A DNA stretch of 64,000 nucleotides, from the NCBI RefSeq assembly GCF_003386665.1, contig NZ_QTUB01000001.1, positions 744,001 to 808,000 on the forward strand. Reading direction: 5' to 3'. A program made the translations under genes and the position numbers. Under the pieces are notes generated by a model that searched no databases, was not told where the DNA came from, and saw only the letters and a program-made list of their open reading frames with translations. Numbering within the stretch: the first letter of the stretch is position 1; each line of letters opens with the position of its first letter. Below are positions 18,963 through 39,282 of the stretch, piece by piece. The DNA comes from Xenorhabdus cabanillasii. GTDB lineage: Bacteria; Pseudomonadota; Gammaproteobacteria; Enterobacterales; Enterobacteriaceae.

Positions 18963-18973
18963 ACATCCCCCTT

Positions 18974-18991
18974 TGTTTAGTATACTAAACA
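18974..18991. promoter_or_regulatory. NadR-type operator upstream of nadR
   Basis: TGTTTAGTATACTAAACA is a perfect 18-bp palindrome that matches the enteric NadR box TGTTTA-N6-TAAACA. It lies 11 bp before the nadR start codon, so autoregulation by NadR is the likely role. Confidence 0.82.
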
Positions 18992-19179
18992 ACATAACAT
19001 GCTTATTGTGAAAGGTAAAAACAAAATTAGTGGGTTATTAGAAGCAAATCCTGCAATGTTATACATTGATAGAAGTTAAAATTTAATAGTTACAATTATT
19101 GACAGAATAAAATTAGTAATAATTAAATTTTTAGCTAAATCCCGGAATTAAGCAAATAGACGGTTATTAAATAAAAATT

Positions 19180-19219
19180 ATATCGCCTGTTTTCTCATAT
19201 GAGTGAGAGCAGGCGATAA
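19180..19219 (-). terminator. Hairpin upstream of nadR, possible terminator for radA-side transcripts
   Basis: TTATCGCCTG (19180-19189) pairs with CAGGCGATAA (19210-19219), with an inner TCTCA/TGAGA pairing. On the minus strand the hairpin is followed by ATAATTTTTATTT. Before island insertion it would have lain between radA and nadR and could have ended the serB-radA transcript. Confidence 0.55.
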
Positions 19220-19296
19220 CATAGAAAGTGGTACTTCAAATAATTAAAGTATATTAAATATAAATTGCCTTGCCGTTTGCTAATCAAGGCATCAAC

Positions 19297-20553
19297 CAGG
19301 GTGAGATCACGAACGTTATTTAATCAAGATTAATCCATTTGACCCATGAATTAAGTTGTGATCTTATACTCCTTTTTTCGGGAACCCTCTAATGGAACTT
19401 GATGCCTTTTCTCAGTATTTCGGTGATATTAACGATCCTCGCCAGTCTGCCAAAATCAGCTATCCCCTGTTTGATGTCCTTTTTTTGACAATGTGTGCCG
19501 TCCTGACGGGGGCTGAAGGTTGGGAAGATATCGAAGACTTCGGCAATATGCGCTGCAACTGGCTTCAGGAAAAGGGATTTTTTCAAACCGGCTTACCCGT
19601 ACATGACACAATAGCACGTATCATTTCCCGCCTTGATCCTGCCCAGTTTCAACGCTGCTTTATTCGCTGGACTCAGGCGGTCAGTGAACACACCGACGGT
19701 GAAATCATCGCGATTGATGGCAAAGCCTTACGGAGTACCGGGAATTGGCATCAGCGATTATCGCCTATCTATATGGTGAGCGCATTTGCTACGGCCAATG
19801 GCGTTGTCATGGGGCAGTTAAAAACCGAAAAAAAATCGAATGAAATCACAGCAATTCCTAAATTAATTGATTTGCTGGACATCAATAGCTGTTTGGTCAC
19901 CCTTGATGCGATGGGATGCCAGACCCAAATTGCCCAAAAAATTATCGCCCAAGGCGGGGATTACCTGCTGGCCGTAAAAGATAATCAGGCAACATTACAC
20001 CGCGAGCTTAAACAAGCGCTGTCAACCCACGTCACTGCCGTCAGTCAGTCAGTCAGAAAATGTCATTATAGAACAATGACATGGTCGAATTAAATTACGT
20101 GAATATCATGTCTTACCGGCAGGGAAGCTTGCCTTGCAATTGCCGGAATGGAAAGACTTAAAAAGTATTGGCGTGGCAATACGATATCGCCTTGATAAAA
20201 CGAGAAAAAAAGAATCACTGGATTATCATTATTACATCAGCTCAGCGGAACTTGACCCCGATCGTTTTAAGGCGGCAGTGCGTGGTCATTGGGGGGATTG
20301 AAAACCGCGTTCATTGGGTGCTCGATGTTTCCATGAATGAAGATGCGTGCGCCATTCGTCGCGGTAACGGTGCCGAGATATTAGCGGGTATGCGACACCT
20401 CTCACTGAATATGTTGCGTGCAGAAACCAGCATAAAAGCCAGTATCCGACGAAAAACGAATATGGCTAATATGAGCAGTGAGTATTTGGACAAGGTATTA
20501 ATTGCAGGTTTTCAGGTGTTGGTCAAGAAATAAACATTCATGCTCTTGCCCTG
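19297..20553 (+). mobile_element. ISAs1-family insertion sequence, copy 1
   Basis: The 1257-bp element begins CAGGGTGAGATCACGAACG and its right end, read inwards, is CAGGGCAAGAGCATGAATG (14 of 19 matches), giving imperfect terminal inverted repeats. It is about 98% identical by eye to copy 2 at 37986-39239. Left flank AGGCATCAAC recurs only outside copy 2, not on the right of this copy. The transposase is frameshifted. Confidence 0.88.
19392..20533 (+). pseudogene. ISAs1-family transposase, frameshifted
   Basis: The translation begins MELDAFSQYFGDINDPRQSA and resembles ISAs1-type DDE transposases (the H-repeat-associated protein family). The first frame runs to 20093 and ends after a GTCAGTCAGTCAG tetranucleotide run; removal of one GTCA unit would restore the frame into GRIKLREYHVLPAGK. 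A second lesion is an extra G in the run at about 20291-20296 (six Gs, five in copy 2), breaking the HWGIEN motif. The final frame continues to 20533. Non-functional as it stands unless frameshifting is used. Confidence 0.88.
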
Positions 20554-21063
20554 ATATCCACTACATTGTGAAGCGATATCTAACTGCCAAATAACAAAGA
20601 CATTTTATCAAGGTGCCCGCCTGTTTGAAGAGTAGTTCAGTTATGATGCCAATATAAGCATGATGCCTTTTTCATTGGCATTTAATGCGAATAAAAAAGA
20701 GTGATGATTGCAAGCATGACGATTTTCGAATTCAAGCGGCTACACCTATGAGTCGGATTGGTTAATTTAGCATGCAGCAAACAGTCCTTTTATAAAAGCA
20801 AGGGGCTATTGTTGAGGTTTTTTTTAAATTGCTGCTAAATGTAGTGACCTACAATTATTTATCATCCATACGTTGACTATCCGAAGATAGTCCTTATAGT
20901 GCTTTATTTTCCTAATTCAGGAAAGAAGAAATAAAGTAATGATTCACATAATTAATTAAAACCATGATCATGATAAAGTTCCTGTATAACAAGAATAACA
21001 ATTTTTCCCTGAAAACAACCTTGCAGAAGGTTATATATCTATACGGTTATTATTAATAAAATA
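20554..21063. other. Non-coding stretch between IS copy 1 and IS30
   Basis: No complete gene is visible. If the left flank of IS copy 2 is joined to the right flank of copy 1 (sharing ATATC), the truncated frame at 37445-37985 would continue open for about 25 codons into this region, ending near 20632. That is weak support for the two having once been contiguous. The rest may hold the old promoter region of the TpsB gene. Confidence 0.4.
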
Positions 21064-22146
21064 CTTGGATTCGCATAATAAGTGCAATTTCTGAGAAAGG
21101 CGGTCAGTTGCTATAGTAGGCATCTTTCTCGCCAAAGGAAAATGCGCTATGACCTATACACAACTGACCGAAACAGAAAGATATCAGATTTCTAGCCTGA
21201 AAGAAGCGGGTTTTTCACAACGGGCGATTTCAAAGTCACTCAATCGAAGCCCCTCAACGATTAGCCGGGAATTGAGACGAAATCGGGAAGCAAAGAAATA
21301 TTCTCCTGAACAGGCTCAGTTTAAGGCCGTAGCACGCCGGCATTTTGCTATAAAAGCAGTCAAAGTGAATCCAGAGATAGAAATGTGGATCAAACAGTTA
21401 ATTTGGCAAGATTTAAGTCCCGAACAGATTGTGGGTTATCTTAAACGGGAAGCCAAAATATCTTTACATCATGAGACGATTTATCGATTGATTTATAAAG
21501 ATAAAAAGAATGGTGGTGATTTATGGCAACATCTCAGAATGGCGAAAAAACCGTATCGTAAACGCTATGGAAATTATGAGCGCAGAGGCAAAATTAAAAA
21601 TAGAGTCAGCATTGATAAACGCCCAAAATTTGTTGATAAAAAGCAGCGTATTGGTGATTGGGAAGGCGATACTATCGTTGGCCAAGATCATAAAAGTGCA
21701 TTATTGACACTCGTTGAACGAAAATCATTATTTACTATTATTATTAAACTTGAAGATAAAACAGCAGAAGGGGTCGCCAAAGCGGCAACAAGACACTTAT
21801 CACTGATAAAACATAAAGTTAAAACAATTACCTTTGACAATGGCCTCGAATTTGCCGAACACGAGCGGATCAGTAAAAATTTAGAGGCAAGAATTTATTT
21901 TGCTCACCCGCATTCCCCTTGGGAAAGAGGGATAAATGAGAACATAAATGGATTAATTAGAGATTACTTCCCAAAAGGAACCGATTTTAATAAGGTATCA
22001 GAGCGGGAGATTAACCTTGTGGCAAACCGATTAAATAATCGTCCTCGTAAAACACGAGATTACAAAACACCGAATGAGTTATTTAAAGGAGTCCCCACTC
22101 AATTACTTCGCTCATTACGGTGTTGCGCTTAATATGTGAATCCAAG
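21064..22146 (+). mobile_element. IS30-family insertion sequence
   Basis: A 1083-bp element whose ends are CTTGGATTCGCATAATAAG (left) and CTTGGATTCACATATTAAG (right, read inwards), so inverted repeats with two differences in the first 19 bases. It is flanked by ATA on both sides (21061-21063 and 22147-22149), consistent with the short target duplications of IS30-type elements. It sits upstream of the TpsB gene and probably split its promoter region. Confidence 0.9.
21149..22132 (+). CDS. IS30-family transposase
   Basis: The 327-residue protein starts MTYTQLTETERYQISSLKEA and has an N-terminal helix-turn-helix (FSQRAISKSLNRSPSTISRE) followed by an rve-type DDE integrase core: GDWEGDTIVG with the first Asp, TFDNGLEF with the second Asp, and HSPWERGINENINGLIR with the catalytic Glu. 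The IS30 signature is complete and the gene is intact, so the element could be active. Confidence 0.95.
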   Translation: MTYTQLTETERYQISSLKEAGFSQRAISKSLNRSPSTISRELRRNREAKKYSPEQAQFKAVARRHFAIKAVKVNPEIEMWIKQLIWQDLSPEQIVGYLKREAKISLHHETIYRLIYKDKKNGGDLWQHLRMAKKPYRKRYGNYERRGKIKNRVSIDKRPKFVDKKQRIGDWEGDTIVGQDHKSALLTLVERKSLFTIIIKLEDKTAEGVAKAATRHLSLIKHKVKTITFDNGLEFAEHERISKNLEARIYFAHPHSPWERGINENINGLIRDYFPKGTDFNKVSEREINLVANRLNNRPRKTRDYKTPNELFKGVPTQLLRSLRCCA

Positions 22147-22344
22147 ATATCAATATATTATGGTTCCATTATTATCTCTTTTAGAAATGAAATTTTATTA
22201 CCAATTGAAAAAATTTGTGATTTAATCATCAAAAAACACATTAACTTGACATATTTTATAAATATTTCCATTATCCCAGATTGACCCTCCTATTTTTCTG
22301 TATTACGCTCGATTAAACTTTAATAAATAAAACTTATTCATAAA

Positions 22345-24033
22345 ATGAAAAATAAGAAAATCATTTATTTACTCTTATATGTTGTATCTTTAATATTTTC
22401 AGATAATTTATCTGCATCTTCCACTCTTTCTTCAAATATCAGCCCGCTGGATCAAGAAGTTCTTAACCAAAAGCAAAAAAACATATTGGAAGAAGCGCAG
22501 AAACAAGAAGATATGGGCGCAGAAATTGTGATCCCTCAATCTATAGCCCCCACAGCAACTTCCGACGATGAATTATCCTGTCAGATAATTAATCATATTG
22601 ATATTGAAAACGCTGAAAAGATACCAAAATCCAAACAGGAATCATTAACCCTACCTTATATTGATAAATGTTTAACAATTAATAATTTTTAATTCTTTAG
22701 TGAAAGAGATTTCAAATTATTATCTAAAGCAGGGTTATATTACTTCTGTTGCATTTATCAAACCATAAAGTTTGTCTCAAGGTCATCTCACTATCAGTGT
22801 TGTTGAGGGAAAGATAAACAGTATCACGATTGATGATGAATATTTATTAGCATTAAAATTGGCTTTTCCCAATATGACAGGAAAAGTCCTTAATCTTCGG
22901 GATATTGAGCAAGGTTTTGATCAATTAAATCGCTTGTCTTCGTACCAGGTGAATATTGATATTCATCCCGCAAAAAAAGCGGGATATTTTGATGTTGTTT
23001 TAAAACGGCTCTCGTCTAAAAAACCCATACATGCCAGTATAGGTCTGGGTAATAGTGGGCAGAAAAGTTATGGCAAAAATCAACTAAGCACGACAGTAGA
23101 AGTCGATAATCCCTTACGTATAGCCGATTTATGGACCATTTCTGTTAACAGGAACAGTGATTTTCGCAATAGTTATAAAACCTGGTATGTAACGTCTGGA
23201 TTAAGTATACCTTACGGTTATTGGTTATTCAGTTATCAATATTCATGGCATAAATCCTTTCAGGATATTCTGTTCGATGATAAAAAATTGCGTTATGAGG
23301 GGAAAGGACAATCGCACAATTTAAAAGCAGTCAGAACATTATACCGTGATGGAAAACAAAAACTGGCTTTAAACATGAATTTCACCCGACGTAACACAGA
23401 AAATGGAATTGGTGATGTTAAGTTTTCTATTAATAGCCCGACATTAAGCACTCTTAACGTCGGCCTGAATTACAGTTCAACACTACTGGGAGGATATTTT
23501 ACGCTTAATCCCGCCATAACAAAAGGTTTAAATATTTTAGGTGCAACTAAAGATAACCATATTCGTGATGCCCCTAAAAGTCAATTTTACAAAGTCAGTA
23601 TGAGTGCTAATTATTTCAAACCGTTAACCCGTAATATCTATTATTTAACGTCTGTTTATGGACAATATAGCCCAAAAAACCTTTATGCTAGTGAGAAACT
23701 TTCATTAGGCGGTCAGTATTCCATCAGGGGATTTAAAGAGCAAATATCATCGGCAATCGTGGCGGGTATTGGCGAAATGAACTGGACTGGAAAGTGGCAA
23801 CACTGCCTGTATTGGGTGAACTTTCTTTAAAAGGATCATTAGATACGGGCTGGATAAAAAATGAGGAAAACCGATTTTTAGGAGGAGGAAATATAACGGG
23901 AACATCACTTGGCATATTTTTGAACAATGATATTAGTAACCATTCATTAATTGTCGGAAAGCCATTAAATTACCCTAAAGATCTCAAACCAGATGATTGG
24001 GTTGTTTACTGGTCCACTTCTCTCAATTTTTAA
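22345..24033 (+). pseudogene. TpsB-type outer membrane transporter (ShlB/CdiB family), inactivated
   Basis: Three open segments together make one ShlB/FhaC-type transporter. Segment one (22345-22692) has a signal peptide and a region up to the POTRA domain (LPYIDKCLTI). Segment two carries the POTRA/VEGKI sequence (LTISVVEGKINSITID) and the beta-barrel with the conserved GGQYSIRGFKE motif. Segment three (to 24033) ends ...VVYWSTSLNF with a terminal aromatic residue. Lesions: a frameshift near 22690 in AATAATTTTTAA, a TAA nonsense codon at 22766-22768 in the restored frame, and a one-base deletion near 23780. TpsB proteins export the TpsA partner encoded just downstream; this copy cannot make a full barrel. 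Confidence 0.88.
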
Positions 24034-24088
24034 ATAAAGGTTGTTTTTATCTTAAAAATTGAGATTATCAGATGAAGGAAATAAAAAT

Positions 24089-27000
24089 ATGAATACATCT
24101 AATAATCCCGGCCAGTTTGTAAGAAAAACATCTTATTTATTAGTTTATTTGATAGGTATACACCCAATAAACTCAGCTCTTGCTAATACGTTAATCCCTG
24201 ATAACCCCCAAATACAAATCAAAGAAGTGAACCATGTTCCTGTGATTAACATAGCATCTCCTAATGAGGCTGGTATCTCTCATAACACTTATAAAGATTT
24301 TAATATTGATAAACAAGGTGCCGTATTAAACAATTCAATAAAAGACGTAACCTCTCAACTCGCGGGTCAATTAGATAAAAACGCCAATTTTAGTGATAAA
24401 TCTGCAAAAGTGATTATTAATGAAGTCATTACAGGTAATAAATCCGAACTTCAAGGAATGCTGGAAGTTGCAGGAGATAAAGCCAGTGTCATGATTGCTA
24501 ATCCTAACGGAATTACTTGTGATGGGTGTGGTTTTATTAATGTGGATAATGCAGTGATTACTACAGGCCGTCCTGCTTTTGATGAAAAAGGAGCGCTAGA
24601 ATCCTTAAGTGTAACACCAGGCCCAATTGTAAGTTTAGAAGATGGCCTAATCTCTATTGGCGAAAAAGGTTTAAATGGCCAGGAAGCAAATTCTGTTGAT
24701 ATTGTAAGCAGGAGATTAGAATTAAATGGAAAAATCAGGGCAAATAATCTTGCAATAATACAAGGACTTAATAGAATTAACTATAAAGAGGGGACTATCA
24801 CTGCTGATACCAATACCAGAAATAAGGCTGTTTATATTTATAAACCTAATGGCGCTATTTATGCAGATCCATATCTTGCAATAGACACTAAGGATCTTGG
24901 TGGAATGTATGCGGGTAAAATTCGCATATTATCAACAGAAAGAGGTGCTAATATTATTGCAAGAAACTTAGAAAGCACAAAAGAGGATATTACAATAAAT
25001 GGGACTTTATTTGTAGGTCTAAATGGGAATATCAAAGCCAAAACTGATCTTAATGTAACAGCAGAAAAAACCATTGCCGGCGGGCCTGAAAAAAATATAG
25101 AAGCTGGAAATAATATTGTGTTAGCAAGTAATCAGTCTATAGATTCAGCCAGCATAATAAAAGCCGGTAATGATATACGAATATTGTCGCCTAAGTTTTA
25201 TAATACATTATGGGGGATAGCAGTGGGTTAATTCAAGCCGGACATAATGTATGGATTCAAAAAAATGTTCAAGGCGATAAAAGTGACTTAGTGACAAATA
25301 TAAGTGGCAATATTAAAACAATTAATGGTGATTTAATAATCAGAACTAAAAACTTTAATAATGTCATTAATGGTGATGGAATTCATAAATATTTTAAACA
25401 ACGCAGACCTGAAAATGATGAAAATCTAGTACAAGGAAATATTGAATCAGGTAAGAGCTTATATATTTATAGTGATGAACTTATTAATGATACGTCTAAA
25501 ATAAAAGCCAAAAGTGATTTAATTCTTACCGGGCAAAAATTAGATCAGCCTTGGGATGAAAAATATAAAATTAAATTTGGCTCTATTACAGCAGAAAATA
25601 ATCTGGTTGCTGATTTTAAAGATTCAATTAATATAGGAAGCAATAATTTAAAAGCTAATGAAAAAGTGGTCTGTCAGTGGCGAAAATGTTTTACTACAGG
25701 CTAATCATATTAATCTCTTTAATAAGGTAGAAGCGAAAAATGATCTTACCCTTGCTGCAAACGAATCTATTAACCTTCCCAGTAAATTAGATTTAAAGAC
25801 AAAAAATAGCATTTCAATAATAGCCAAAGGTATTGACTTATATGGCAGAAAATTATCCAGTAATAACATTTCGATAATATCTCCTAATGATATCAATTTA
25901 TACTGGAGTAAGTTTTCTGGTCATAACTTAAATTTGATTAGTAAAGAAGGAAATATTAGAACATATACTAATACTCAAGGGGATTCGGCTTCCAGGATTA
26001 ATGAATTGTACGCCACTGATGATTTGACCATTTCTGCTGGAAAGAATATTTATATTGAAAATACAAAATTTGCCAAAGGTCAAAATGTATCGTTTATTGC
26101 AAATAAAAATATTACCGTAGAAACCAATGATAATATATTCAAAAATAACCCATTACAACACAATGTCAGAGATCTATTGCTGGAAAGTGGAGGTCAATTA
26201 GATACTTACAATTCGGTTTCCATGACCAGTGGTAATGATATCATTTTAAAACGGTGTAAGATTTAATTGTGAGTTTGGTTTTAGTCAGGAGACAGGATTA
26301 AGTTGTAATACAACCCCGTTAGCCTCTAATCACAGTATTAATTTACAGGCTGGACGAGACATTAAAATAGGTTATCGTAAAATTCGCAGAACAATACAGA
26401 AAATATATTGAGTGGGGTAAGTATGCAGAATTAGCGACCAGAATTAAATCTGGTGACTTAATAATGAATGCCGGGCGTAATCTTGAATTAGAAGCTGTCA
26501 TAGCTTTGCCTAAAGGTAATGCTGCTTTATTTGCGGGAAACACACTGTTATTGCCGGCGTATTTTTTTACAGTTCACGATAAAAAAAACACTGTCCATGC
26601 CCGCAATAGAGTCTATATTGAAGGTGATAAAAATATTACATTAACATCTAATGGTGAAATTATCACTCAGGCTTCAATTTTATCAGCAAAAGGAGGTCAT
26701 CTTACAATAAATGCCTTGGGAAATGTCAAATTAGATTCAGCACCCCATGTAGAAATCTCGAAAAATGGTGCCTTTGAGTTCGAAAGAAGATTACATTCTG
26801 GAAGTGAGTTATCGGCTAAAGGACTATTAACAATAATCTCTAATGGAAGCCTTTTATTTAGGGCCACGAAATTAATGGTTAATGGATTGGGGAACAGTTG
26901 GGAGCCTGCATCTAAAATAGATTCAAGATTAAAAGACGCAATGCGTATAGGCACTATGGATATTGCCGCAAAGGGGGGCTATCTGTATGCAGAAGCTCCA

Positions 27001-29047
27001 GAAGAATCTGCTTATTATCAGGTAACAAACACAGGGAGGAATTTTTGGGGCAGAAAAAAAGAATATAAAGATACTCACCGTCACACAACAAGCAAAATTA
27101 CTGAATTTACCTCTACAGGTGATATAAACATATTAAGCCGGGATGACAGTACTTATGAAGCCAGTAAAATAAATGCGGGAAGAAATGCTAAATTAACCAG
27201 TACTCACGGTTCTGTTAACTTTAAGGCAATAAAAAACTCAGAATTTCATCAAGAAACCAGTTTATCGAAAGGGTTCTTTATCAAGCAATCCGATAAAGGT
27301 TATACCGCTGATACGTGGGTACTTCCCCGAATTTATACCGGAGGAACACTGACTATAGATTCAGCTAAAGGAGTTAATGCTGATATCAAGGTCGCGAATA
27401 CTCAAGATTTACAAAATGCTATCGATATATTAGGCAATATGCCGGGCACTGCCTGGATTAAAGATCTGAACAAGCGCGATGATGTTCAGTGGAATATTGT
27501 TAAAGATGCTTATGACGACTGGGATTACAGTAGTCAGCGTCTAAGCCCGCTGGGGGCCTCTTTAATTGCGATAGTTGTTACTGCGGTTACCGCCGGAAAA
27601 GGCGCTCCGTTCGCCGCAAAAATAGCGGGCGGGAGTGCCGTTGCTCAAGGGGCTATAACTGCCGGAATGTCAGCTTTAGCTTCTCAAGCAGCGGTTTCAG
27701 TCGTTAATAATCAAGGGAATTTGTCCAGCACCCTTAAAGAATTGGGAAAAAGCGATACGGTTAAATCTATAATTACTTCAATGGCAATTGGGGGAGCCTT
27801 AGCCGGATTTGATAAGTTCATGGGTTGGAGTAAACCGGATGCCAGTGGTGCTACCGGTACTGGAATAGACCCGTCAAAAGCAGACTTACCTTTATTAAGT
27901 AATCATGACTGGGTTAAAGTTGCCCAGAGGGTTACTGGTCAATCAGTTATAAAATCCAGTTTAAATACTGCAATTAGTGGGGGCAGTTTTAAAGACAATT
28001 TCACTACAGCGTTACTTTCTACTGTTGCGAATCAAGTTCATGCAGAGGGTGCAAATTACCTGGGCGGGTATGCAAATGTTTTAAATGATCTGGGAATATC
28101 AATTGGTCATGCCGGAATATCTGCTCTTGCCGCTGAAATTGGAGGAGGAGACCCTAAAGCAGCCGCTGCTGGAGCGTTGGCTGCTTCTCTCGCATATGCG
28201 ACTTTAGATGATATATTTGAAGATCCAGTTGCTCAGGAAGCAGGCGGTAAAATCATTGGAGGTTTAGCGGGAGCTTTTATATCAGGAACTTCTGAAGGTA
28301 CTAACAGTGGAGCCGATGCGGGAGAAATAACGATTATATATAATCATTTATATCATGCTTTACCGGAGGAACAAAAAGAAAAATATAGAAAAATTCAAGC
28401 AGAAAATTTGAAAAAAGCCTGTACTGAAAATCCCAAAATTTGTAAATATACTCAAACTTCTCTGTCAATAATAGCAGATAATATATGGGGAATTTCAACC
28501 ATTAAAGGGTATGCCGAAGCTGAAAAAACCGGTGATTATTTAATAGCAACAGCCGAACTTATCCCATTGATTAAATATGGTAAAACGGCTTTTAAAACTG
28601 CTAAAGAGGTTTCTGATGCTCTTATAAATGCTATTAATTTAGGAAAACAGGCAGCGAAAAAAGGTGATTTTGAAACAGCTTCAAAAATATTTAAGCACGT
28701 TGATAAAGAAATAAAGCATATCAATAGTACAGGCTCTCTTCCTGATATAAAGATACCTCTTAATGCAAAGCTAGACTCATTGGTAAATTTTTCTGATAAA
28801 CAGCTCCAGAAAAAATTTAAACATGGTGGAGATTTTGGAATAAAAGTGACTAAGCCAAATACAGAAGCTCTTCGCCAGTTTGAAAAAGCAATTAGAGATC
28901 ATGTAAAAAGATTCAAGAGTTCTCTTTAATAATAATACAAACAATGCTGTTGTCGTTGATAAATTTGGCAATTTTGTAACTGGTTTTAAGCTTAAACCAG
29001 GAACACCACAATATGAAAATTATATGAAAAATGGGGCATTACAATGA
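24089..29047 (+). pseudogene. TpsA/CdiA-like exoprotein with colicin D-type C-terminal tRNase domain, inactivated
   Basis: The reading begins MNTSNNPGQFVRKTSYLLVY (start 24089, after GAAGGAA), with a signal peptide and a TPS secretion domain carrying NPNGITCDGCGFIN (about 24500-24541). Filamentous haemagglutinin-type repeats follow, then a pretoxin region and a C-terminal toxin. Frames break near 25215 (G run), 25670, and between 26240 and 26460 (several). The C-terminus (from about 28768) has KKFKHGGDFGI and, after a one-base shift in an A run near 28905, SRVLFNNNTNNAVVVDKFG and ...GFKLKPGTPQYENYM; both resemble colicin D tRNase. The restored frame stops at 29047, overlapping the immunity start by ATGA. 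Part of the catalytic core between HVK and SRVLF appears deleted. Confidence 0.87.
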
Positions 29048-29316
29048 GTTTATTACTTTTAGAGTTTTCTAAATCGTTTGTTAAAGGAAAAACATGTGCG
29101 CAGGTTTTTGCAGATGCATATATAGAGCTTTGGCGTATAGAAAGGGATAATAATAACATTCTCAATTACAATGATAAGTTAAGTGAGTGTTTATCAAGTA
29201 TATTTTGTCTTGCCGATATGTATAATCCAGAACAGGATGACAGGCTGAGTTATGAATTAAATGATGAGCAATTACGTGAAAAGGTTTCTGAACTAATAAA
29301 ACAGTTAGATAGTTAG
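29044..29316 (+). CDS. Colicin D-type immunity protein (CdiI-like)
   Basis: The 90-residue acidic protein (MSLLLLEFSKSFVKGKTCAQ...) aligns by eye along its length with the colicin D immunity protein family: FxxxKxxAxxFxxxYIELWRxER, then LSECLSSIFCLADMYNP and a YELNDEQLREKVSELI end. It would bind and mask the adjacent colicin D-type tRNase domain. Its start codon overlaps the stop of the restored toxin frame by four bases, the usual toxin-immunity arrangement. The frame is intact although the toxin gene is broken, so it may persist as an orphan immunity gene. Confidence 0.82.
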   Translation: MSLLLLEFSKSFVKGKTCAQVFADAYIELWRIERDNNNILNYNDKLSECLSSIFCLADMYNPEQDDRLSYELNDEQLREKVSELIKQLDS

Positions 29317-29327
29317 ATAGTAAAAAG

Positions 29328-29350
29328 CCACCTGTTATACAGGTGGTTTT
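29328..29350 (+). terminator. Terminator after the immunity gene
   Basis: CCACCTGT (29328-29335) pairs with ACAGGTGG (29339-29346) around a 3-nt loop, followed by TTTT, 11 bp past the stop codon of the immunity gene. Confidence 0.8.
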
Positions 29351-29504
29351 GACACAGCCTCTTATATAGGGCTAACGCATGAACATTTTTCATCCATATG
29401 ATGGTGAATTAATCCGGTAAGCTGACTTATTATTTATTTTTATTGCAATTCCATGTCGCTAGTAAAGGTATATCAATTTGAGAGATTAATGGAAAGGTTT
29501 ACAA

Positions 29505-29999
29505 ATGAGTCAATCTTATTTCTATTGTGAAACGTGGTCGCTAGGCTACCAAAAAGCGCATAACTTATTGAGTGAAGAGGAGGCTTATCAAAGGCACCTG
29601 AAAGGTAAACCATATACTGTTCTTGTTGGCTCGAACAGCAGACCTTCATGTGTTATATCGATAATCAAAACCAAAGATTTCGTGAGTGTTGAGTTTTTAG
29701 ATGATAATTTAAAAGAATATCTATCTTATCAGTTTCACGTATTAGAAAATGAAAAGCTGTTTCTGGCTATGGTGGTATATCGAGAGTTTGCAGAAAAAGA
29801 AGGAGAGGGAGAAGGACTCTTAAACGTCAGTAAAGGCACTTGTTTTTTTTATAAAAAAGATGGCACATATACAATCAGGGAAGAAACCTTTAAACCTCAT
29901 ACTGTTATAGAAAAAGAGGGCTTTTCTGATTTAAAAGAGAATTATGATACCTTTCCAGAATTTGGTTGTTATGAATCATTAATACAAAAGGAAAGATAG
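29505..29999 (+). CDS. Uncharacterised cytoplasmic protein, candidate orphan immunity protein
   Basis: The 164-residue protein (MSQSYFYCETWSLGYQKAHN...) has no signal peptide or membrane segment and is acidic and rich in aromatic residues. I do not recognise a named family with confidence. It starts after a GGAAAGG-type ribosome binding site and has its own terminator at 30034-30062. It lies between the CDI immunity gene and a 38-bp fragment homologous to the TpsA gene, a position typical of orphan immunity modules left by toxin-tip replacement. That role is inference from location. Confidence 0.7.
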   Translation: MSQSYFYCETWSLGYQKAHNLLSEEEAYQRHLKGKPYTVLVGSNSRPSCVISIIKTKDFVSVEFLDDNLKEYLSYQFHVLENEKLFLAMVVYREFAEKEGEGEGLLNVSKGTCFFYKKDGTYTIREETFKPHTVIEKEGFSDLKENYDTFPEFGCYESLIQKER

Positions 30000-30033
30000 T
30001 CAACCCAATAGAAGCCCCCTCATTAAGTAATAC

Positions 30034-30062
30034 CGCTCGCTTAAACGCGAGCGGCTTTTTTG
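30034..30062 (+). terminator. Terminator after the candidate orphan immunity gene
   Basis: CCGCTCGC (30034-30041) pairs with GCGAGCGG (30048-30055) around a 6-nt loop, followed by C and a run of seven Ts. Confidence 0.92.
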
Positions 30063-30120
30063 TCGGGATAATGGTGTGTATTATCACGAAAAAGATCGGT
30101 CAATAACTTGAAAAACAGCG

Positions 30121-30158
30121 ATGGATATTGCCACAAAAGGCGGCTATCTGTATGCAGA
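30121..30158 (+). pseudogene. 38-bp remnant of a TpsA/CdiA gene
   Basis: Bases 30121-30158 match 26956-26993 inside the TpsA pseudogene with three differences; both encode MDIA-KGGYLYA. The similarity stops on both sides. This indicates a second, almost wholly deleted TpsA copy or toxin cassette downstream of the immunity genes. Confidence 0.75.
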
Positions 30159-30250
30159 CGTATTTGTCAGGCCCTTCACCATAAAAGCCTATGTGGGAGT
30201 ATTAGAAATTCTGTGTCATTCCAGTAAAATACCTCAAAAAGGAATGACAA

Positions 30251-31290
30251 ATGACTCAACCTTTCGATTTTGATAAAGCGCTAAAGGCACTTCAGGAAGG
30301 TCACGCTCTGACAGGTAAAGATAACTCCTGAACCCACTGATTAAACAACTCACCGAAGCGGCTTTGGCCGCTGAACTTGATTCCCATCTGGCTCAGGATA
30401 TTGAAGTCAACCGAAAGAACGGCTCGACTAAAAAACAGATTAAAGCCTCGACCGGGGGTTTCGAACTGGCGACACCACGGGATCACAACGGGTGAAGAAG
30501 CATCAGACGACATTCTCGAATGAGATTGAACAAAAAATTATCCGCCTGTTTGCTTTGGGGATGAGCTATGCCGAACTCAGTCGAGAAATCGAAGATCTGT
30601 ATGCCTTCAGTGTCTCCAGTGCCACAATCAGTGCCACCACTGACAAGGTCATTCCCGAACTTAAACAGTGGCAACAGCGTCCGCTGGAAGCCCTTTATCC
30701 CTTTATCTGGCTGGATGCGCTCCACTACAAGATCCGTGAAGAAGGCCGCTATGTGAGCAAGGCTGTCTATACCGTATTGGCCCTCAATCTTGAGGGGAAA
30801 AAGAAGTTCTCGGGTTATACTTATCTGAAAGCGAAAGCGCTAACTTCTGGCTGTCTGTACTGTCAGACTTGCAAAACCGGGGGGCTAAAAGACATCCTGA
30901 TCGCCTGCGTCGATGGACTAACGGGGTTCCCTGAAGCGATAAACAGCATCTACCCACAAACAGAAGTACAGTTGTGCATCATTCACCAAATCCGCAACTC
31001 CCTCAAATATGTCGCCTCAAAACATCACCAGTCCTTCATGGCCGATTAAAACCCGTCTATCGGCGGTCTCAAAAGACGCGGCAGAAACGGCGCCTGATGA
31101 ACTGGAAGCCAGATGGGGTCAACAATATTCCGTTGTCATCCAAATTTGGCGTCGTAAGTGGAATAACTTATCCGGTTACTTCCGTTATCCGGCAAGTATC
31201 CGTCAGGTTATCTATACGACTAACACCATCGAATCAGTGTACCGACAGTTCCGCAAACTGACAAAAACCAAAGGCGCGTTCCTGAATAAA
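30251..31290 (+). pseudogene. IS256-family (Mutator) transposase, multiply broken and 3' truncated
   Basis: Segments read in order MTQPFDFDKALKALQ, EAALAAELDSHL, VKKHQTTFSNEIEQKIIRL, ELSREIEDLYAFSVSSATIS, PFIWLDALHYKIREEGRYVS, ILIACVDGLTGFPEAI, and TNTIESVYRQFRKLTKTKGA, which is the order of an IS256-type transposase. There is a frameshift near 30325, an apparent small deletion at about 30494, another shift near 30810, and one near 31025. The last 50 or so residues are missing. No terminal inverted repeats could be fixed. Confidence 0.88.
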
Positions 31291-31315
31291 AAGTGTTTGG
31301 TGCTATCAGAGGTTA

Positions 31316-31525
31316 GAAATCGCCCAGGTATCAGGGAAAATTTGTGAAAGCGAAGTCATTTCAGAGATAGAGCGTAACCCGGTTGAAATGTTGCATCTTA
31401 GCGTAGATGCCGGTTGTGACTCAGTTATCATTGAAAACTCTACACGAGCAGTTGTAAATCTTCAGAAAGATTTCGTGCCGATATACAGGCTGCGGCAGTT
31501 ATTAATGGCAATATCAAAAAGCTAA
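31316..31525 (+). pseudogene. Unidentified coding remnant next to the IS256 remnant
   Basis: An open stretch reads EIAQVSGKICESEVISEIER, then NPVEMLHLSVDAGCDSVIIE and a tail ending MAISKS before a stop at 31523. It has no start codon of its own and begins where the IS256 similarity ends. I do not recognise the family. It is likely the 3' part of a gene cut by the IS256 element or by a deletion. Confidence 0.4.
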
Positions 31526-32124
31526 GTATTACCAGCGACTACTGCAAACGCAGGATATTGGTTTCTACAAACTTCCTCTTCAATGGGAGAGAATGAAATA
31601 GGTTCGTTGCTTCTGGAGATGTCAAGTGACCTTGCAGTTTATTTCACTGGTAGAAGTAATATATTAACCAATTAAAAGTACTCATAGTAACGACATGACC
31701 AAACAAATTTAACAGTATAATAAAAAGTATTATTTAATATAAAAAAGTTTACACCGTAATAAAATTGTGAAGTTATATATTACATTAGTTAAAATGTGTT
31801 AAATATCACATTTTAATGTAATTAGAAATCCCCTATTTCATTTGAGATATGAAATTAAAACAGAAGAAAAGACAAATGTTAAAAATAACACAATCATAAT
31901 ATAACAATTTGTTTTTAATGATAAAAAATCAGAATAAAATATGGTTACTACGCTAAGTTTTTTAAAATCCCGTTAATTCGTTATTTTTCAGAACAAAATT
32001 TAAGAGTAAAATCACATTTTTAATGATAAATAATATATCATCAAGTTTACGATCTCTTTCTCACTACAGGCATAATGTATAAAAATACGCTTTACTATCA
32101 TTAATCAATGGAATAAAAACAACT
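31526..32124. other. AT-rich intergenic region upstream of the HTH-PfkB kinase gene
   Basis: About 600 bp without a gene that I can support. The stretch 31690-32110 is extremely AT-rich and presumably includes the promoter of the kinase gene; several TATAAT-like sequences occur but none can be singled out. Confidence 0.5.
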
Positions 32125-33258
32125 ATGTTTAAAAACAATAAAGGGCATAATATGAGAAAAATGGATAATCTGGAGTTTAGAATATTACAACTTCTCAGAA
32201 AAAATCCTTTTCTCGCCCAACAAGAAATCGCTGATATTATTGGAGTCAGCCGTTCAAGTGTCGCAGGTCATATCCTGAATCTACAAAAAAAGGGGCATAT
32301 AAGAGGTAAGGGTTACATTTTTTCCAGTGGAAATTATGCTGTAACGGTGGGTGCTTCCAACATGGATATTACCAGCTTCGCTTCGACTGAATTATTAAAG
32401 AAAGATTCCAACCCAGGGAAAACAAAATATACGTTAGGTGGTGTTGCCCGAAATGTTGCGCATAACATTGCCGCATTAAAGCATGATAGTTATTTAATTT
32501 CTGTTTTTGGTGATGATTCATATGGAAAAAGACTGTTTAGAGAAACCAAGTTAGCAGGTGTGGATCTTAGCCATTCTCATAAACTAAATGATGAAAGAAC
32601 TTCGATTTATCATTCAATAGTTGATAGCAATGGTGAACCACACACATCCGTTAGTGATATGGATATTTTGAAAAAACTCACTCCTGAGCTACTAAATAAA
32701 TCTAAACCTCTCATTGAGCGGGCAGGAATACTGATTATCGACTGTAATTTGACAGAAGAGGCTCTGGAATGGTTATTTAAAAACTCAGGTAATGTGCCAA
32801 TATTTGTTAATCCGGTTTCTTCATATAAGGCGGGTATTGTACGTAACTGGTTATCATATATTCATACTATTAGACCCAATCGGCTGGAAGCAGAAAAAAT
32901 CAGTGGCATTAAAATTAACTCAATAAATGAGGCTAAATTGGTAACATCATGGTTTCATGAACAAGGGGTTCAACGAGTAATTTTAAGTATGGGAGCAGAC
33001 GGTGTGTACTACAGTGAACTAGATTATGTATCAGGCCACTCTCCGGCATTTCCTGTTAATATTGTCAATAACACGGGTTCCGGTGATGCAATGATGGCGG
33101 GATTAGTTCATTGTGCGTTAGCAGGTATGGATTTTCAGGAAAGTGTCTATTTCGCACAACGCTGTGCCGCTCTTGTACTGTCTACTGAATTGACTTATTC
33201 ATTAACCCTGTCGCCCTTCGATGTTGAAAGGTTGCTGGTATTGGATTCATATAGTTAA
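32125..33258 (+). CDS. PfkB-family sugar/nucleoside kinase with N-terminal winged helix-turn-helix (YeiI/PsuK-like)
   Basis: The 377-residue protein combines an N-terminal DNA-binding domain (ILQLLRKNPFLAQQEIADII ... GVSRSSVAGHILNLQKKG) with a ribokinase-like domain: first PfkB motif in LGGVARNVAHNIAAL and second in NNTGSGDAMMAGL, which keeps the catalytic Asp. The domain order and much of the sequence resemble E. coli YeiI; pseudouridine kinases belong to the same family. Substrate unknown. The start could be 32125 or MRKMDN at 32152. It has no operon partner and a strong terminator at 33333-33358. Confidence 0.87.
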   Translation: MFKNNKGHNMRKMDNLEFRILQLLRKNPFLAQQEIADIIGVSRSSVAGHILNLQKKGHIRGKGYIFSSGNYAVTVGASNMDITSFASTELLKKDSNPGKTKYTLGGVARNVAHNIAALKHDSYLISVFGDDSYGKRLFRETKLAGVDLSHSHKLNDERTSIYHSIVDSNGEPHTSVSDMDILKKLTPELLNKSKPLIERAGILIIDCNLTEEALEWLFKNSGNVPIFVNPVSSYKAGIVRNWLSYIHTIRPNRLEAEKISGIKINSINEAKLVTSWFHEQGVQRVILSMGADGVYYSELDYVSGHSPAFPVNIVNNTGSGDAMMAGLVHCALAGMDFQESVYFAQRCAALVLSTELTYSLTLSPFDVERLLVLDSYS

Positions 33259-33332
33259 TAACCATTGTGAAATAACATGACTCATTCCACCGACATAATA
33301 AAAATAAAAAAGTTTTAGAATATTTGGCTAAA

Positions 33333-33358
33333 GCCGGGTTTCAACCCGGCAGTTTTTT
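33333..33358 (+). terminator. Terminator after the HTH-PfkB kinase gene
   Basis: GCCGGGTT (33333-33340) pairs with AACCCGGC (33343-33350) across a 2-nt spacer (effectively a 4-nt or larger loop), followed by AGTTTTTT. Confidence 0.88.
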
Positions 33359-33464
33359 CAGTTCTTCCCATATAAAAAATTATTCACGAATCGAATCGGA
33401 AAAATAGGAAGAGCTTATGTTCGATGAAATATAATCACAAATGCGGAGATAATGGACAGCGAAC

Positions 33465-34202
33465 CTAAAACTGACAAATAAGTCCGGTATGAATACAATT
33501 TTGCAAATAAACATCCCAAAAACCTTGAGGATAACTTTCTAAGTCGCTTTTTAAGACAGTTGGTTTTTGCCAGCTAAAACTCTTGAATCCTGCTTTATTA
33601 ATTGCATCTTCGTAGCTTTCACGGCTCCAGCGATAAAATGTGAAAGGACTTGGTGGCGTTGTCAGAAATTCTGCCTGATAACAGAAACCATTTTGCCAAG
33701 GTTCTTCGCTTAAGATTTTGAAACCATAATTATCACAGTTTCCATTTTCTAATCGATAATCAGGGGATGCCATGTAAGCTACGAGTTTACCAGAAGGTTT
33801 GAGGTGATTGGCCGCTGCTTGAAACATGGCTTCAAGTTCCTTGGTTGATTCTGAATAGTGGAATAAAAAAGCGGCAATGATGATATCAAATTTTTCATAT
33901 AATTGCATTTCACATACGTTTTGTACGCAGAACTCAATATCATCACCATACAATTTAGATTTTGCTTTGGCGAGTTCAATCATTTTCTCAGAGATATCAA
34001 CGCCGACCACTTTTGACGCTCCCCGGCGGTGTAATTCCCGCCCAAAATAACCATATCCGCAAGCTAAATCTAGGACTGATTTTCCCTGTATATCACCGAC
34101 CATGTTGAGTATATCTCGAAGCTCAGACTGTCGTTGAGCGACAGTATTGGAGAACTTTTCATAATATTCACCAATAAAATCATAGTTTGCTTGCTCTTCC
34201 AT
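33465..34202 (-). CDS. Class I SAM-dependent methyltransferase
   Basis: The 245-residue protein has motif I VLDLACGYGYFGREL (about residues 42-56), an acidic residue at the end of beta-2 (VVGVDISEKMIE), and motif IV FDIIIAAFLFHY. This is the standard Rossmann methyltransferase fold; the C-terminal half (FTFYRWSRESYEDAINKAGF) resembles ToxA/small-molecule methyltransferases, so a small-molecule substrate is more likely than DNA or RNA. ATG at 34202 is preferred, with AGGAG eight bases upstream; the GTG at 34211 overlaps that site. It is monocistronic within the island. Confidence 0.88.
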   Translation of the reverse strand: MEEQANYDFIGEYYEKFSNTVAQRQSELRDILNMVGDIQGKSVLDLACGYGYFGRELHRRGASKVVGVDISEKMIELAKAKSKLYGDDIEFCVQNVCEMQLYEKFDIIIAAFLFHYSESTKELEAMFQAAANHLKPSGKLVAYMASPDYRLENGNCDNYGFKILSEEPWQNGFCYQAEFLTTPPSPFTFYRWSRESYEDAINKAGFKSFSWQKPTVLKSDLESYPQGFWDVYLQNCIHTGLICQF

Positions 34203-34920
34203 TATTATCACTCCTGATAAAAAGACATGTTCTCATAAAAAATATCTAATGAGGGTACTATATAAAAAGATAAAATATCGCGAAATAATTAGATATAATT
34301 ATTTTTATAACGTGAGTAACTTTCCACGATAAATCGTGTTTGAATTCAGTTAAAAATAACTAAATGTTGCCATATGCTGGTAATCATCACTTCCAAACAG
34401 TGATTTCGATTTAATCCGAATACTCGGCTAATGGAATGGTCAGTGCGCTGGGCAAAGCTGCCCTGTTTCTTGCGGGTGAAAGTCCAGTCGTAGAAGGTAA
34501 ACCAGACCACTACGTAGCGAGTCTTGCATTTCCGGCGGTAACAAAGGATATGAAGCGTAGACAGCGAAACATTCGAGCCGAAACCAATAGGTGAACGTGA
34601 TAGCGCCGAAATTCATTAAGTCGTGTGTGCCGATAGTTTTGTCCAGCTAGCAGGCAACAGCTTCTGAATGGTCATACTGGTGAATTTCCCAGCCAGAAGC
34701 ACACACCGGAGCCGCAGGCGTCGGCGAGCTTGTAGAGAACAGTGTGGAACCCAGGAGATCCTGATACTTCTCAAGGAAATGAGTATTTCGGGCACAAGTG
34801 CCAAAACACAAGGCCTGAGAAATGGGTATCAGGAAGTCGGAGCCAGTCATAGTAGTGATGAAACGAGTAATGATCGCGGAGCGAAGGGCTGGCAGACAGA
34901 TCGAACGTGAGAGGGCAACA

Positions 34921-36255
34921 ATGACCGTACACAGCAACGACGGAGTATCATGGTTAACAAAACTTGAGCGTATAAGCAAGAAATCAGCAGATAACAAGCA
35001 GCGGGTGTTCAACAACTTAGGACATTTGCTGAATGTTGACATGCTGAAAGAGCAATTCTTGCGGCTTGACGGGAGTAAAGCTGTGGGTATTGATCGCATG
35101 ACTAAGGCCACTTACGGTGAACACCTTGATGATAATATTAACAATCTTATCATGCGGATACGCAGAGGAACGTATCACCCGAAAGCAGCCAGAATCACGG
35201 AGATCCCGAAGGAGGATGGCAGTAAACGACCACGGGCTATTTCGTGCATAGAGGATAAACTGGTGCAAGTTGCGGTCAGTGATATTCTCAACCGAATTTA
35301 TGAGCCGCTGTTTATGCCCTGCTCATACGGCTTTCGACCGGGATTAAACGGTCATGCGGCGTTGAAGGCTCTGCAACAGCAAACATACTGTAACTGGAAT
35401 GGCGCGGTTGTGGAAATCGACATCCGAAAGTACTTCAACACAATACCCCATATTGAGCTGATGAGTTTACTGCGGAAGAAGATATCAGATCGCCGTTTTC
35501 TCAGACTGATTGAGCTCTTAATAACGGCCCCTGTTATCGAGGGCAAACAGGTATCCGAGAACGCGTGCGGATGCCCCCAAGGGTCAATCCTATCGCCGGT
35601 ACTTGCCAATATCTACCTGCACCATGTGATAGACGAATGGTTTGATGAAATCAGCCGTTCACACATTCGCGGTCGGGCGGAGATGGTGAGATATGCGGAT
35701 GATATGGTGTTTACCTTTGAGTTCAGGAGTGAGGCAGAACGCTTCTACAAGGTATTACCTAAACGACTGAGTAAATACGGACTGGAGTTGCACGATGACA
35801 AATCGCAGCTAATTCCTGCGGGACACATCGCAGCACTGAGAGCCAATCAGTCGGGCAGACGCCTGCCAACGTTTAACTTTCTGGGGTTTACCTGCTATTG
35901 GGGAAAATCGCGAAAAGGTTTATGGCGACTGAAATTAACCAGTCGCAAAGACCGTTTCGCGGCCAAATTGAAGGGACTCAGGGACTTTCTCTGGAAGAAC
36001 CTGAATACACCTGACAAAAGGCTTGTCCTGACTATCGTCATCAGAGTAATCAGAGGCTGGATAAATTATCACGGTATATCTGATAACCAGAGACGAGTCG
36101 GGCAGTTTATCTACCAAAGTGCGCGAATACTCTACAGAGGGTTCAACCGTAAAGGTGGGCGTCGCCGACTGACGTGGAAAAAGCTGAATCTGATCCTGAA
36201 GATGCTGGGTTATCCATTTCGTTGGAAAACGCATTCAATGTTCATTTCTTGCTGA
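34921..36255 (+). CDS. ltrA: Group II intron reverse transcriptase/maturase
   Basis: The 444-residue protein (start MTVHSNDGVSWL, preceded by GAGAGGG) has the RT0-RT7 blocks: AVGIDRMT, IPKEDGSKRPRAI, YGFRPGLNGHAAL, EIDIRKYFNTI, CPQGSILSPVLANIYLH and the catalytic MVRYADDMVF. A maturase (domain X) region follows (RVIRGWINYHGI). There is no C-terminal HNH endonuclease domain, so retrohoming would not rely on second-strand cleavage by this protein. The open frame extends 33 codons further upstream, without a good ribosome binding site. The gene is intact. Confidence 0.94.
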   Translation: MTVHSNDGVSWLTKLERISKKSADNKQRVFNNLGHLLNVDMLKEQFLRLDGSKAVGIDRMTKATYGEHLDDNINNLIMRIRRGTYHPKAARITEIPKEDGSKRPRAISCIEDKLVQVAVSDILNRIYEPLFMPCSYGFRPGLNGHAALKALQQQTYCNWNGAVVEIDIRKYFNTIPHIELMSLLRKKISDRRFLRLIELLITAPVIEGKQVSENACGCPQGSILSPVLANIYLHHVIDEWFDEISRSHIRGRAEMVRYADDMVFTFEFRSEAERFYKVLPKRLSKYGLELHDDKSQLIPAGHIAALRANQSGRRLPTFNFLGFTCYWGKSRKGLWRLKLTSRKDRFAAKLKGLRDFLWKNLNTPDKRLVLTIVIRVIRGWINYHGISDNQRRVGQFIYQSARILYRGFNRKGGRRRLTWKKLNLILKMLGYPFRWKTHSMFISC

Positions 36256-36282
36256 ATATGTGTGGGGACACGGATCTGTCGG

Positions 36283-36316
36283 GAGCCGGATGCGGTAGTT
36301 CCGCACGTCCGGTTCT
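36283..36316 (+). ncRNA. Group II intron domain V
   Basis: The 34-nt element GAGCCGGATGCGG...CCGCACGTCCGGTTC folds into the standard domain V: a lower helix with the AGC triad, a two-base bulge (CG) and an upper helix with a TAGT-type loop. This is the catalytic core of the ribozyme. Confidence 0.9.
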
Positions 36317-36343
36317 GAGGAGCAACTGTCTTGAACGCAATTT

Positions 36344-37444
<1,101 letters not shown>

Positions 37445-37993
37445 GTGCCAAATCATTTTTATGATAGTCGAATTTCAAGATACAAGGGGTCTGCTTGGGT
37501 GACCGGGCAGATCTACTCACCCAAGAAAAATCAATTAATAAAAAATAATTTTGGCTTAGATTTTGAAGCCGCAAATCAGTTTTTAACAGTGTCTGATGAA
37601 AAAGAGATTGGCTATTGCATTTTAAGAGAAAAAATAAAAATGAATGCAGGCCAGTCATGGAGTGTACCATTAGGATTACCAAATCCTGAAAATCATGTGG
37701 TATTTGTCCGAAGTGATAATCCGAATTGCGCTGTTTCTACTGATAGAATATACAATAAAATTACGGTATCTCACGATTGTAATTTATATGTGGTTGTTTT
37801 TTCTTCTGGATTTTCTCCACAGAGGGATGATGGTGGATTACATATTTGGAATGAACGGGGAGAATTAACTTATTCCAGTAAATATATTCCTTTTTTCCAA
37901 GGTGAGAATATTACTTTCGATAACCATACTGATGTGATTACTACAAAATTACAATTCCCAATGATTAGAGCAACAGACTTATATCCAGGGTGA
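37445..37993 (+). pseudogene. Phage-type protein truncated between IS110 and ISAs1 copy 2
   Basis: A 182-codon frame (GTG at 37445) includes YDSRISRYKGSAWVTGQIYS and LHIWNERGELTYSSKYIPF, reminiscent of small phage tail-associated proteins (DUF6453 type). Its 5' side runs into IS110 non-coding sequence and its 3' side into the ISAs1 left end at 37986, so the last codons and the stop belong to the IS. Interpreted as a gene cut at both ends; identity is tentative. Confidence 0.55.
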
Positions 37994-39239
37994 GATCACG
38001 AACGTTATTTAATCAAAAGTAATCCATTTGACCCATGAATTAAGTTGTGATCTTATACTCCTTTTTTCGGGAGCCCTCTAATGGAACTTGATGCCTTTTC
38101 TCAGTATTTCGGTGATATTAACGATCCTCGCCAGTCTGCCAAAATCAGCTATCCCCTGTTTGATGTCCTTTTTTTGACAATGTGTGCCGTCCTGACGGGG
38201 GCTGAAGGTTGGGAAGATATCGAAGACTTCGGCAATATGCGCTGCAAATGGCTTCAGGAAAAGGGATTTTTCAAACCGGCTTACCCGTACATGACACAAT
38301 AGCACGTATCATTTCCCGCCTTGATCCTGCCCAGTTTCAACGCTGCTTTATTCGCTGGACTCAGGCGGTCAGTGAACGCACCGACGGTGAAATCATCGCG
38401 ATTGATGGCAAAGCCTTACGGAGTATCGGGAATTGGCATCAGCGATTATCGCCTATCTATATGGTGAGCGCATTTGCTACGGCCAATGGGGTTGTCATGG
38501 GGCAGCTAAAAACCGAAAAAAATCGAATGAAATCAAAGAAATTCCTAAATTAATTGATTTGCTGGACATCAATAGCTGTTTGGTCACCCTTGATGCGATG
38601 GGATGCCAGACCCAAATTGCCCAAAAAATTATCGCCCAAGGCGGGGATTACCTGCTGGCCGTAAAAGATAATCAGGCAACATTACACCGCGAGCTTAAAC
38701 AAGCGCTGTCAACCCACGTCACTGCCGTCAGTCAGTCAGCCAGAAAATGTCAGTATAGAACAAGGACATGGTCGAATTGAATTACGTGAATATCATGTCT
38801 TACCGGCAGGGAAGCTTGCCTTGCAATTGCCGGAATGGAAAGGCTTAAAAAGTATTGGCGTGGCAATACGATATCGCCTTGATAAAACGAGAAAAAAAGA
38901 ATCACTGGATTATCATTATTACATCAGCTCAGCGGAACTTGACCCCGATCGTTTTAAGGCGGCAGTGCGTGGTCATTGGGGGATTGAAAACCGCGTTCAC
39001 TGGGTGCTCAATGTTTCCATGAATGAAGATACGTGCGCCATTCGTCGCGGTAACGGTGCCGAGATATTAGCCGGTATGCGACCCCTCTCACTGAATATGT
39101 TGCGTGCAGAAACCCGCATAAAAGCCAGTATCCGACGAAAAACGAATATGGCTAATATGAGCAGTGAGTATTTGGATAAGGTCTTAATTGCAGGTTTTCA
39201 GGTGTTGGGCAAGAAATAAACATTCATGCTCTTGCCCTG
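37986..39239 (+). mobile_element. ISAs1-family insertion sequence, copy 2
   Basis: The 1254-bp element begins CAGGGTGAGATCACGAACG and ends ...CATGCTCTTGCCCTG, the same ends and orientation as copy 1. It is followed at once by AGGCATCAAC (39240-39249), which is also the sequence before copy 1. The transposase has three frame lesions. Confidence 0.88.
38081..39219 (+). pseudogene. ISAs1-family transposase, frameshifted (copy 2)
   Basis: The protein is the same as in copy 1 but broken at three places: one T missing in a T run near 38271 (frame ends PAYPYMTQ), one A missing in the A run near 38517-38522, and the GTCAGTCAGTCAG tetranucleotide expansion near 38730 that is also in copy 1. The HWGIEN motif is intact here (five Gs). 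The shared GTCA lesion implies that one copy derived from the other, or both from an already frameshifted parent. Confidence 0.88.
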
Positions 39240-39282
39240 AGGCATCAACCACGATACATCATCAACGATGTATCATTCATGA

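Follow-up and report, generated by a model that had tools for sequence, protein, structure and literature searches.

We analysed a stretch of 64,000 nucleotides from Xenorhabdus cabanillasii (contig NZ_QTUB01000001.1, positions 744,001 to 808,000; hereafter the window), in which a 19.9-kb block bounded by two insertion sequences (IS) separates nadR from radA. The preliminary description of this DNA had stated that the block splits the serB-radA-nadR locus, and the flanks confirm it: nadR lies on the left, and radA, which adjoins serB, lies on the right. The features that delimit the block are the following.

17736..18995, minus strand: nadR, left flank gene (open reading frame; homologue search in the genus)
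19287..19296, plus strand: left copy of the 10-bp target duplication AGGCATCAAC (exact match)
19297..20553, plus strand: left ISAs1-type element, 1257 bp, transposase frameshifted (PF13808 and PF01609)
37986..39239, plus strand: right ISAs1-type element, 1254 bp, with frameshift and mosaic as in the left one (alignment to the left copy)
39240..39249, plus strand: right copy of the 10-bp target duplication AGGCATCAAC (exact match; ends 33 bp from the radA stop)
39251..39276, no strand assigned: hairpin immediately downstream of radA, next to the insertion point (folding; 13 of 200 dinucleotide shuffles fold as well)
39283..40671, minus strand: radA, right flank gene (open reading frame; neighbour of nadR in the named loci)

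The block is an insertion. The window contains exactly two occurrences of the 10-mer AGGCATCAAC, 19287-19296 and 39240-39249, both on the plus strand; 0.12 are expected by chance, and none of 100 shuffles held two copies. They lie directly outside a pair of ISAs1-type elements in direct repeat, as had been claimed for both the position of the 10-mer and the common orientation of the IS. We estimate the chance of an exact 10-bp match at two prescribed ends, assuming equal base use, at about 4^-10 (about 1e-6). The duplication stands outside the IS pair and not around each IS, an arrangement typical of compound transposons. The inner flanks, ATATCCACTA and GACTTATATC, differ and show no target duplication; hence the two IS are not two separate simple insertions. 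These flanks share the motif ATATC directly at the IS ends (20554-20558 and 37981-37985), which has a chance of about 1 in 1024.

We then compared the locus with that of relatives, using a genus set of 30 genomes, one per species, with X. cabanillasii included. nadR was matched in 29 of them, X. cabanillasii among these, and had no match in G015. At 28 of the 29 genus loci other than the window's own, radA lies within 1.5 kb of nadR (the exception is L022 of G020). It is also the near neighbour of nadR in all 80 named loci (the best 80 of 191 were kept), with computed gaps of -25 to 1356 bp. X. budapestensis (L111/L002) has radA and nadR adjacent with no block between them. Two window stretches, 14960-19298 (96.0% identity) and 39247-44696 (95.4%), are collinear with segments that adjoin each other in L111, and a further window stretch aligns to this species at 93.3%. 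When the window flanks were joined and aligned with X. budapestensis, there was no gap at the predicted join, and X. budapestensis holds there a single site matching AGGCATCAAC at 7 of 10 positions. The alignment of this interval among relatives had been proposed in the preliminary description, together with an ancestral junction obtained by removing 19297-39249; the adjacent genes, the single diverged 10-mer and the gapless join support that junction.

The sequences place the insertion after the split from X. budapestensis. The two IS differ by 1.9%, less than the radA-nadR spacer does between the two species (33 mismatches over 348 alignment columns that hold 334 window bases; 86.5% identity when gaps are counted), so the IS pair is younger than the split, in agreement with the empty site. 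Over 9.8 kb of flank, the difference from X. budapestensis is 4.4%. Two other relatives show different arrangements. In X. indica (G011) radA and nadR are adjacent, but that part of the spacer is missing. In G020, which is probably X. nematophila, radA is absent from the 13 kb beside nadR, where other operons are found. As this genome is rearranged beside nadR, the radA-nadR interval has been broken more than once in the genus, making it a breakpoint twice. The G020 stretch next to nadR (L110, G020:C2:575000-592000) contains a transposase-like fragment, IS630-type by eye, and also a liv/rpoH/ftsEX region (names by eye from translations).

The two ends of the block are copies of one IS. Both elements start with CAGGGTGA and finish with TTGCCCTG, and they are 98.1% identical, with 24 mismatches among 1254 aligned bases and 3 further columns with gaps. 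The first open reading frame of the left copy, on which the domain scan was done, matches PF13808 (E 2.4e-31) and PF01609 (E 1.9e-10), and its frame is broken; the right copy was assigned through its identity to the left one. We take the family to be ISAs1, the name used in the preliminary description. ISAs1 elements have terminal inverted repeats starting CAGGG and target duplications of 8-10 bp. This agrees with the ends CAGGGTGA...TTGCCCTG and with the 10-bp duplications found at the pair and at three other copies (L194, L198 and L204). The two direct copies enclose passenger DNA, as in a compound transposon, but a functional transposase is lacking in the element because the frames of both ends are broken: their longest open frames reach 243 and 184 codons, whereas an open-frame relative of the same genome (G000:C1:648495) has 390. 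Hence, the element is a remnant, or it moved in trans.

The ends also share their defects. We compared them with six other copies, two from the X. cabanillasii genome and four from other species. Both ends carry a 4-bp duplication that shifts the transposase frame and is found in none of the six other aligned copies; five substitutions are likewise private to the ends and absent from all six. Both are also mosaic. They are X. nematophila-like in alignment columns 0-497 (96.6-97.4% identity to those copies and 98.8% to each other), like the copies of their own genome in columns 505-996 (96.5 to 98.3%), and X. nematophila-like again in columns 998-1258 (95.0 to 98.1%). The subtypes of the two ends agree at 158 of 165 informative sites. 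Their subtype strings break into 25 and 23 runs, where none of 2000 shuffles gave fewer than 62, while two other copies have 67 and 79 runs and exceed their own shuffle minima (52 and 56). The differences between the ends are distributed over the three tracts (6/496, 9/488 and 9/260), and six of the seven sites with discordant subtype are clustered at columns 31-33, 505-522 and 1195-1201. Between own_1429 and two X. nematophila copies, identities in the three tracts are 86.9-87.3, 84.1-84.3 and 85.0-85.4%. Since the reference types stay about equally far apart in all three tracts, the end copies are most likely the recombinants. We also considered the reference copies as the recombinants and rejected this, because in all tracts they keep fairly even distances from each other and from the X. 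lircayensis and X. budapestensis copies. Of the 7 matches to the IS in the X. cabanillasii genome, only the two ends are of the chimeric, frameshifted type. To judge from these alignments, one chimeric, already broken IS probably gave rise to both ends; otherwise the ends were homogenised later.

Nine further copies of the IS in the genus, two of them from the X. cabanillasii genome, were inspected for duplications, and eight could be judged on both sides (L199 has no left flank). Three of the eight (L194, L198 and L204) have a 10-bp direct repeat, from which we take 10 bp to be a normal duplication size of this IS group. The other five (L195, L196, L202, L205 and L206) show no duplication; many copies have lost their original flanks, probably by recombination. 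L205 and L206, the two other full copies of the X. cabanillasii genome, are 780 kb apart, and each has GGTTT just outside its right end. Of the four places where a 10-bp duplication of this group is intact, two coincide with terminator-like hairpins: the insertion site in the window and that of the X. nematophila copy L194. For the hairpin next to radA, none of 300 single-base shuffles of a longer stretch folded equally. Hairpin targeting by the IS group was rejected, as L198 and L204 have no hairpin (by eye), which leaves two of the four sites, and 13 of 200 dinucleotide shuffles of the radA stretch fold as well.

Between them the two IS enclose 17.4 kb of accessory DNA, with the following features.

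20580..20653, plus strand: rhs gene remnant of 74 bp, separated from the left IS by 26 bp (86% identity to part of L055)
21064..22146, plus strand: IS30 element, transposase 21149-22132 (NF033563, E 5.7e-100)
22345..23830, plus strand: broken tpsB/cdiB-type transporter gene in two open reading frames (ShlB PF03865 and POTRA_3 PF17287 on 22772-23830)
24059..28929, plus strand: broken tpsA/cdiA-type exoprotein gene in several open reading frames (TPS PF05860, Fil_haemagg_2 PF13332, DUF637 PF04830)
29044..29316, plus strand: colicin-D-type immunity gene (Colicin_immun PF09204, E 5.2e-24)
29505..29999, plus strand: open reading frame of 164 amino acids (no Pfam or NCBIfam match)
30492..31347, plus strand: broken Mutator/IS256-type transposase (Transposase_mut PF00872 on 30492-31049; remainder by position)
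32125..33258, plus strand: helix-turn-helix (HTH)-PfkB sugar kinase, left gene of a module (PF00294)
33465..34211, minus strand: S-adenosylmethionine-dependent methyltransferase, right gene of the module (PF13649)
34479..36377, plus strand: group II intron, reverse transcriptase 34822-36255 (RF02005, RF00029, PF00078)
36344..37330, minus strand: IS110 transposase (PF01548, PF02371, NF033542)
37508..37985, plus strand: DUF6453 (tail-fibre-like) gene fragment (PF20051; longer homologues L039-L041)

This cargo is a mosaic of decayed accessory genes with at least four further mobile elements. The L055 stretch that matches the rhs remnant is part of a long open frame in which RHS_repeat PF05593 was matched (E 2.9e-58). 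The IS30 element has the 3-bp direct repeat ATA on both sides (repeat and right end read by eye), and a copy of the IS110 element at L104 matches 36326-37487. The intron reverse transcriptase reaches 293.4 bits against TIGR04416, just under the cut-off of 300. In the two-partner-secretion part, the open reading frame 22345-22692 has no family match and was assigned to the tpsB/cdiB-type gene by position; 25210-25704, within the tpsA/cdiA-type gene, has no family match. The C-terminal piece of the latter is weakly colicin D-like (Colicin_D PF11429, below the cut-off). The open reading frame at 29505..29999 is possibly an orphan immunity gene. The DUF6453 fragment is truncated on its 3' side by the right IS and was presumably cut on its 5' side by IS110. 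No tyrosine or serine integrase was found among the interior open reading frames scanned against Pfam; the scan excluded shorter ones, and no search for att sites was made.

We searched for a donor and for second instances of the unit. The kinase-methyltransferase module (31640-34374, 2.7 kb) is found at other places in further Xenorhabdus genomes: eight of them have 2.5 kb or more of it, and some others have a part. The G004 version is 91% identical and that of X. budapestensis 84%, against 96% for the core genes of the latter species here; being less alike than the core genes, the module has its own horizontal history. Its left neighbour is the same in four of seven compared genomes. In X. 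budapestensis (L102, L217; G006:C92:1-36658) the module is part of a region that resembles a conjugative element and has cdiA/cdiB-type and VgrG-like genes (names by eye); remnants of this region are present in the X. cabanillasii genome at G000:C1:632-636 kb and 1086-1093 kb. These remnants were rejected as donor site, since no scar fitting the interior was recognised. The two-partner-secretion part has matches at E up to 1e-30 in 13 of the 30 genus genomes, X. cabanillasii included, and those outside the window are just 64 to 72% identical. Among the matches listed for the genus set, the left inner junction is found only in the window. A plasmid origin of the interior was also rejected: none of the 934 plasmid records matched by megablast covers 80% of the query, and the 15 of these matches that were listed all fall on the intron stretch (11% of the query). 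Our literature search found nothing on this radA-nadR locus, which is no proof of absence; in the main text of PMC3091717, nadR, radA and serB do not occur.

How did the block arise? The outer duplication, the lack of an inner one, the matching direct ends and the empty site together indicate one insertion at the site. We lean, with some reserve, to the reading that the block is a compound or pseudo-compound element inserted by transposition, as one unit, just downstream of radA. Two direct copies of one ISAs1-type IS, together with the DNA between them, would have inserted at once and created the 10-bp target duplication. The common ancestor of both ends would already have been chimeric and frameshifted before the insertion, and transposase would probably have been supplied in trans by another copy, for example a relative of the open-frame copy at G000:C1:648495. 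Both ends would derive from one IS, and not owe their likeness to later conversion. This derivation may have happened earlier, in the style of a classical compound transposon, or in the insertion event itself, if a one-IS circle integrated replicatively; the data fit both routes, the first with a compound element mobilised in trans. The preliminary description had offered two options, entry of the whole block as one unit and growth inside a single original IS insertion by IS-IS recombination. The data lean to the first, without settling the choice.

Several observations weigh against such a unit insertion. IS-IS recombination is probably active in these genomes, given that five of the eight judgeable copies lack a duplication. 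Gene conversion is visible in the ends and could alone have made them alike. The clustered subtype differences suggest later short conversions and hence a less clean single origin. In tract trees the ends are sisters only in the middle tract (support 0.78); the trees of the outer tracts lack resolution (0.66 and 0.67), and there the left copy stands closer to X. nematophila than its right counterpart does. Among the matches listed for the 30 genus genomes, neither a further copy of the unit nor a donor site was seen. The shared ATATC of the inner flanks is accounted for by none of the readings considered here. Finally, we know of no test of replicative transposition for the ISAs1 family.

A possible but less probable history starts from a single IS that entered the radA-nadR interval, creating the 10-bp duplication, and then decayed; afterwards a circle with a matching IS recombined into it homologously. 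The final structure would be the same, with direct IS copies and an outer duplication, and a functional transposase at entry would be unnecessary. IS-IS exchange is evident, both from the conversion tract of about 490 bp and from the copies without duplication. On the other hand, this history requires that the circle, too, carried the chimeric, frameshifted IS, and of the 7 genomic matches only the two ends qualify. Among the interior open reading frames scanned, none was recognised as a replication gene, and none of the 934 plasmid records matched by megablast covers 80% of the interior. Moreover, the two inner flanks do not fit together as the sides of a single simple IS insertion: they share only ATATC and not 10 bp, and three DUF6453 homologues continue unlike the left inner flank, which holds the rhs remnant. 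A single IS insertion on a circle was rejected for these reasons.

The circular form of the unit insertion deserves separate mention. Here a related transposase, supplied in trans, may have caused the replicative integration of a circle with one chimeric, transposase-dead ISAs1 copy; one step would then have doubled both that IS and the 10-bp target, yielding a pseudo-compound element of the IS26 kind in a family for which no such mechanism is known to us. Taken by itself, we consider this version rather unlikely. Still more doubtful is a unit bounded by two different IS that later conversion made sister-like, with the transposase breaking after entry, so that the element would have moved itself. 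Short conversions would leave clustered subtype-discordant sites such as the six of seven found here, and support for sister ends is weak across the tract trees, but the 24 differences are spread over the full length, as expected from one whole-copy ancestor. Assembly of the block in place by several independent insertions and deletions, with a coincidental 10-mer, would suit the mosaic interior with its further mobile elements, but it is very improbable in view of the exact match at prescribed ends (about 1e-6), at the measured duplication size of the IS group, and of the shared frameshift and mosaic of the ends.

Insertion as one unit, the reading we prefer, makes the block a well-documented case of ordinary bacterial DNA gain, of a kind already known. 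The empty site and the base-exact duplication document how an ordered housekeeping locus acquired 20 kb of accessory DNA. The only unusual feature is that the two ends match in being broken and chimeric, which raises the question of how a defective recombinant IS could come to bound an inserted unit on both sides. The ends bear on a possible replicative movement of cargo by ISAs1-type elements, and on how frequently dead IS are moved in trans.

Some features of the block have counterparts in known systems. The Rhs-associated H-repeats of E. coli belong to the ISAs1 family, and at the left inner junction of the block an ISAs1-type element similarly lies 26 bp from an rhs remnant. Unlike in E. 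coli, just 74 bp of rhs are left in the window, and the association may be due to chance.

Tn6097 of Paracoccus (17,759 bp, IS1634-family ends, 6-bp duplication; PMC3281130) is of similar size and likewise has passenger DNA between two copies of one IS and an outer target duplication. The block differs from it in its IS family (ISAs1), its 10-bp duplication and the frameshifts in both transposases, and it is known from its sequence alone. In Burkholderia thailandensis, a 210-kb composite transposon with bcpAIOB contact-dependent inhibition (CDI) genes moves as a circle with one IS (PMC6350997). The block is also IS-bounded and carries CDI-type genes, a parallel in cargo and shape only: the B. 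thailandensis element has IS2-like ends, functional CDI genes and demonstrated mobility, whereas the CDI-type genes and the IS of the block are broken. In IS26-type pseudo-compound transposons and translocatable units, replicative integration of a one-IS circle duplicates both the IS and the target (PMC7986276). These belong to the IS6 family and make 8-bp duplications, unlike the block, which shares with them the direct IS copies around passenger DNA; a one-IS circle would give sister ends. If the replicative one-IS reading were true, the radA-nadR block would be an instance of an IS26-kind mechanism in another IS family.

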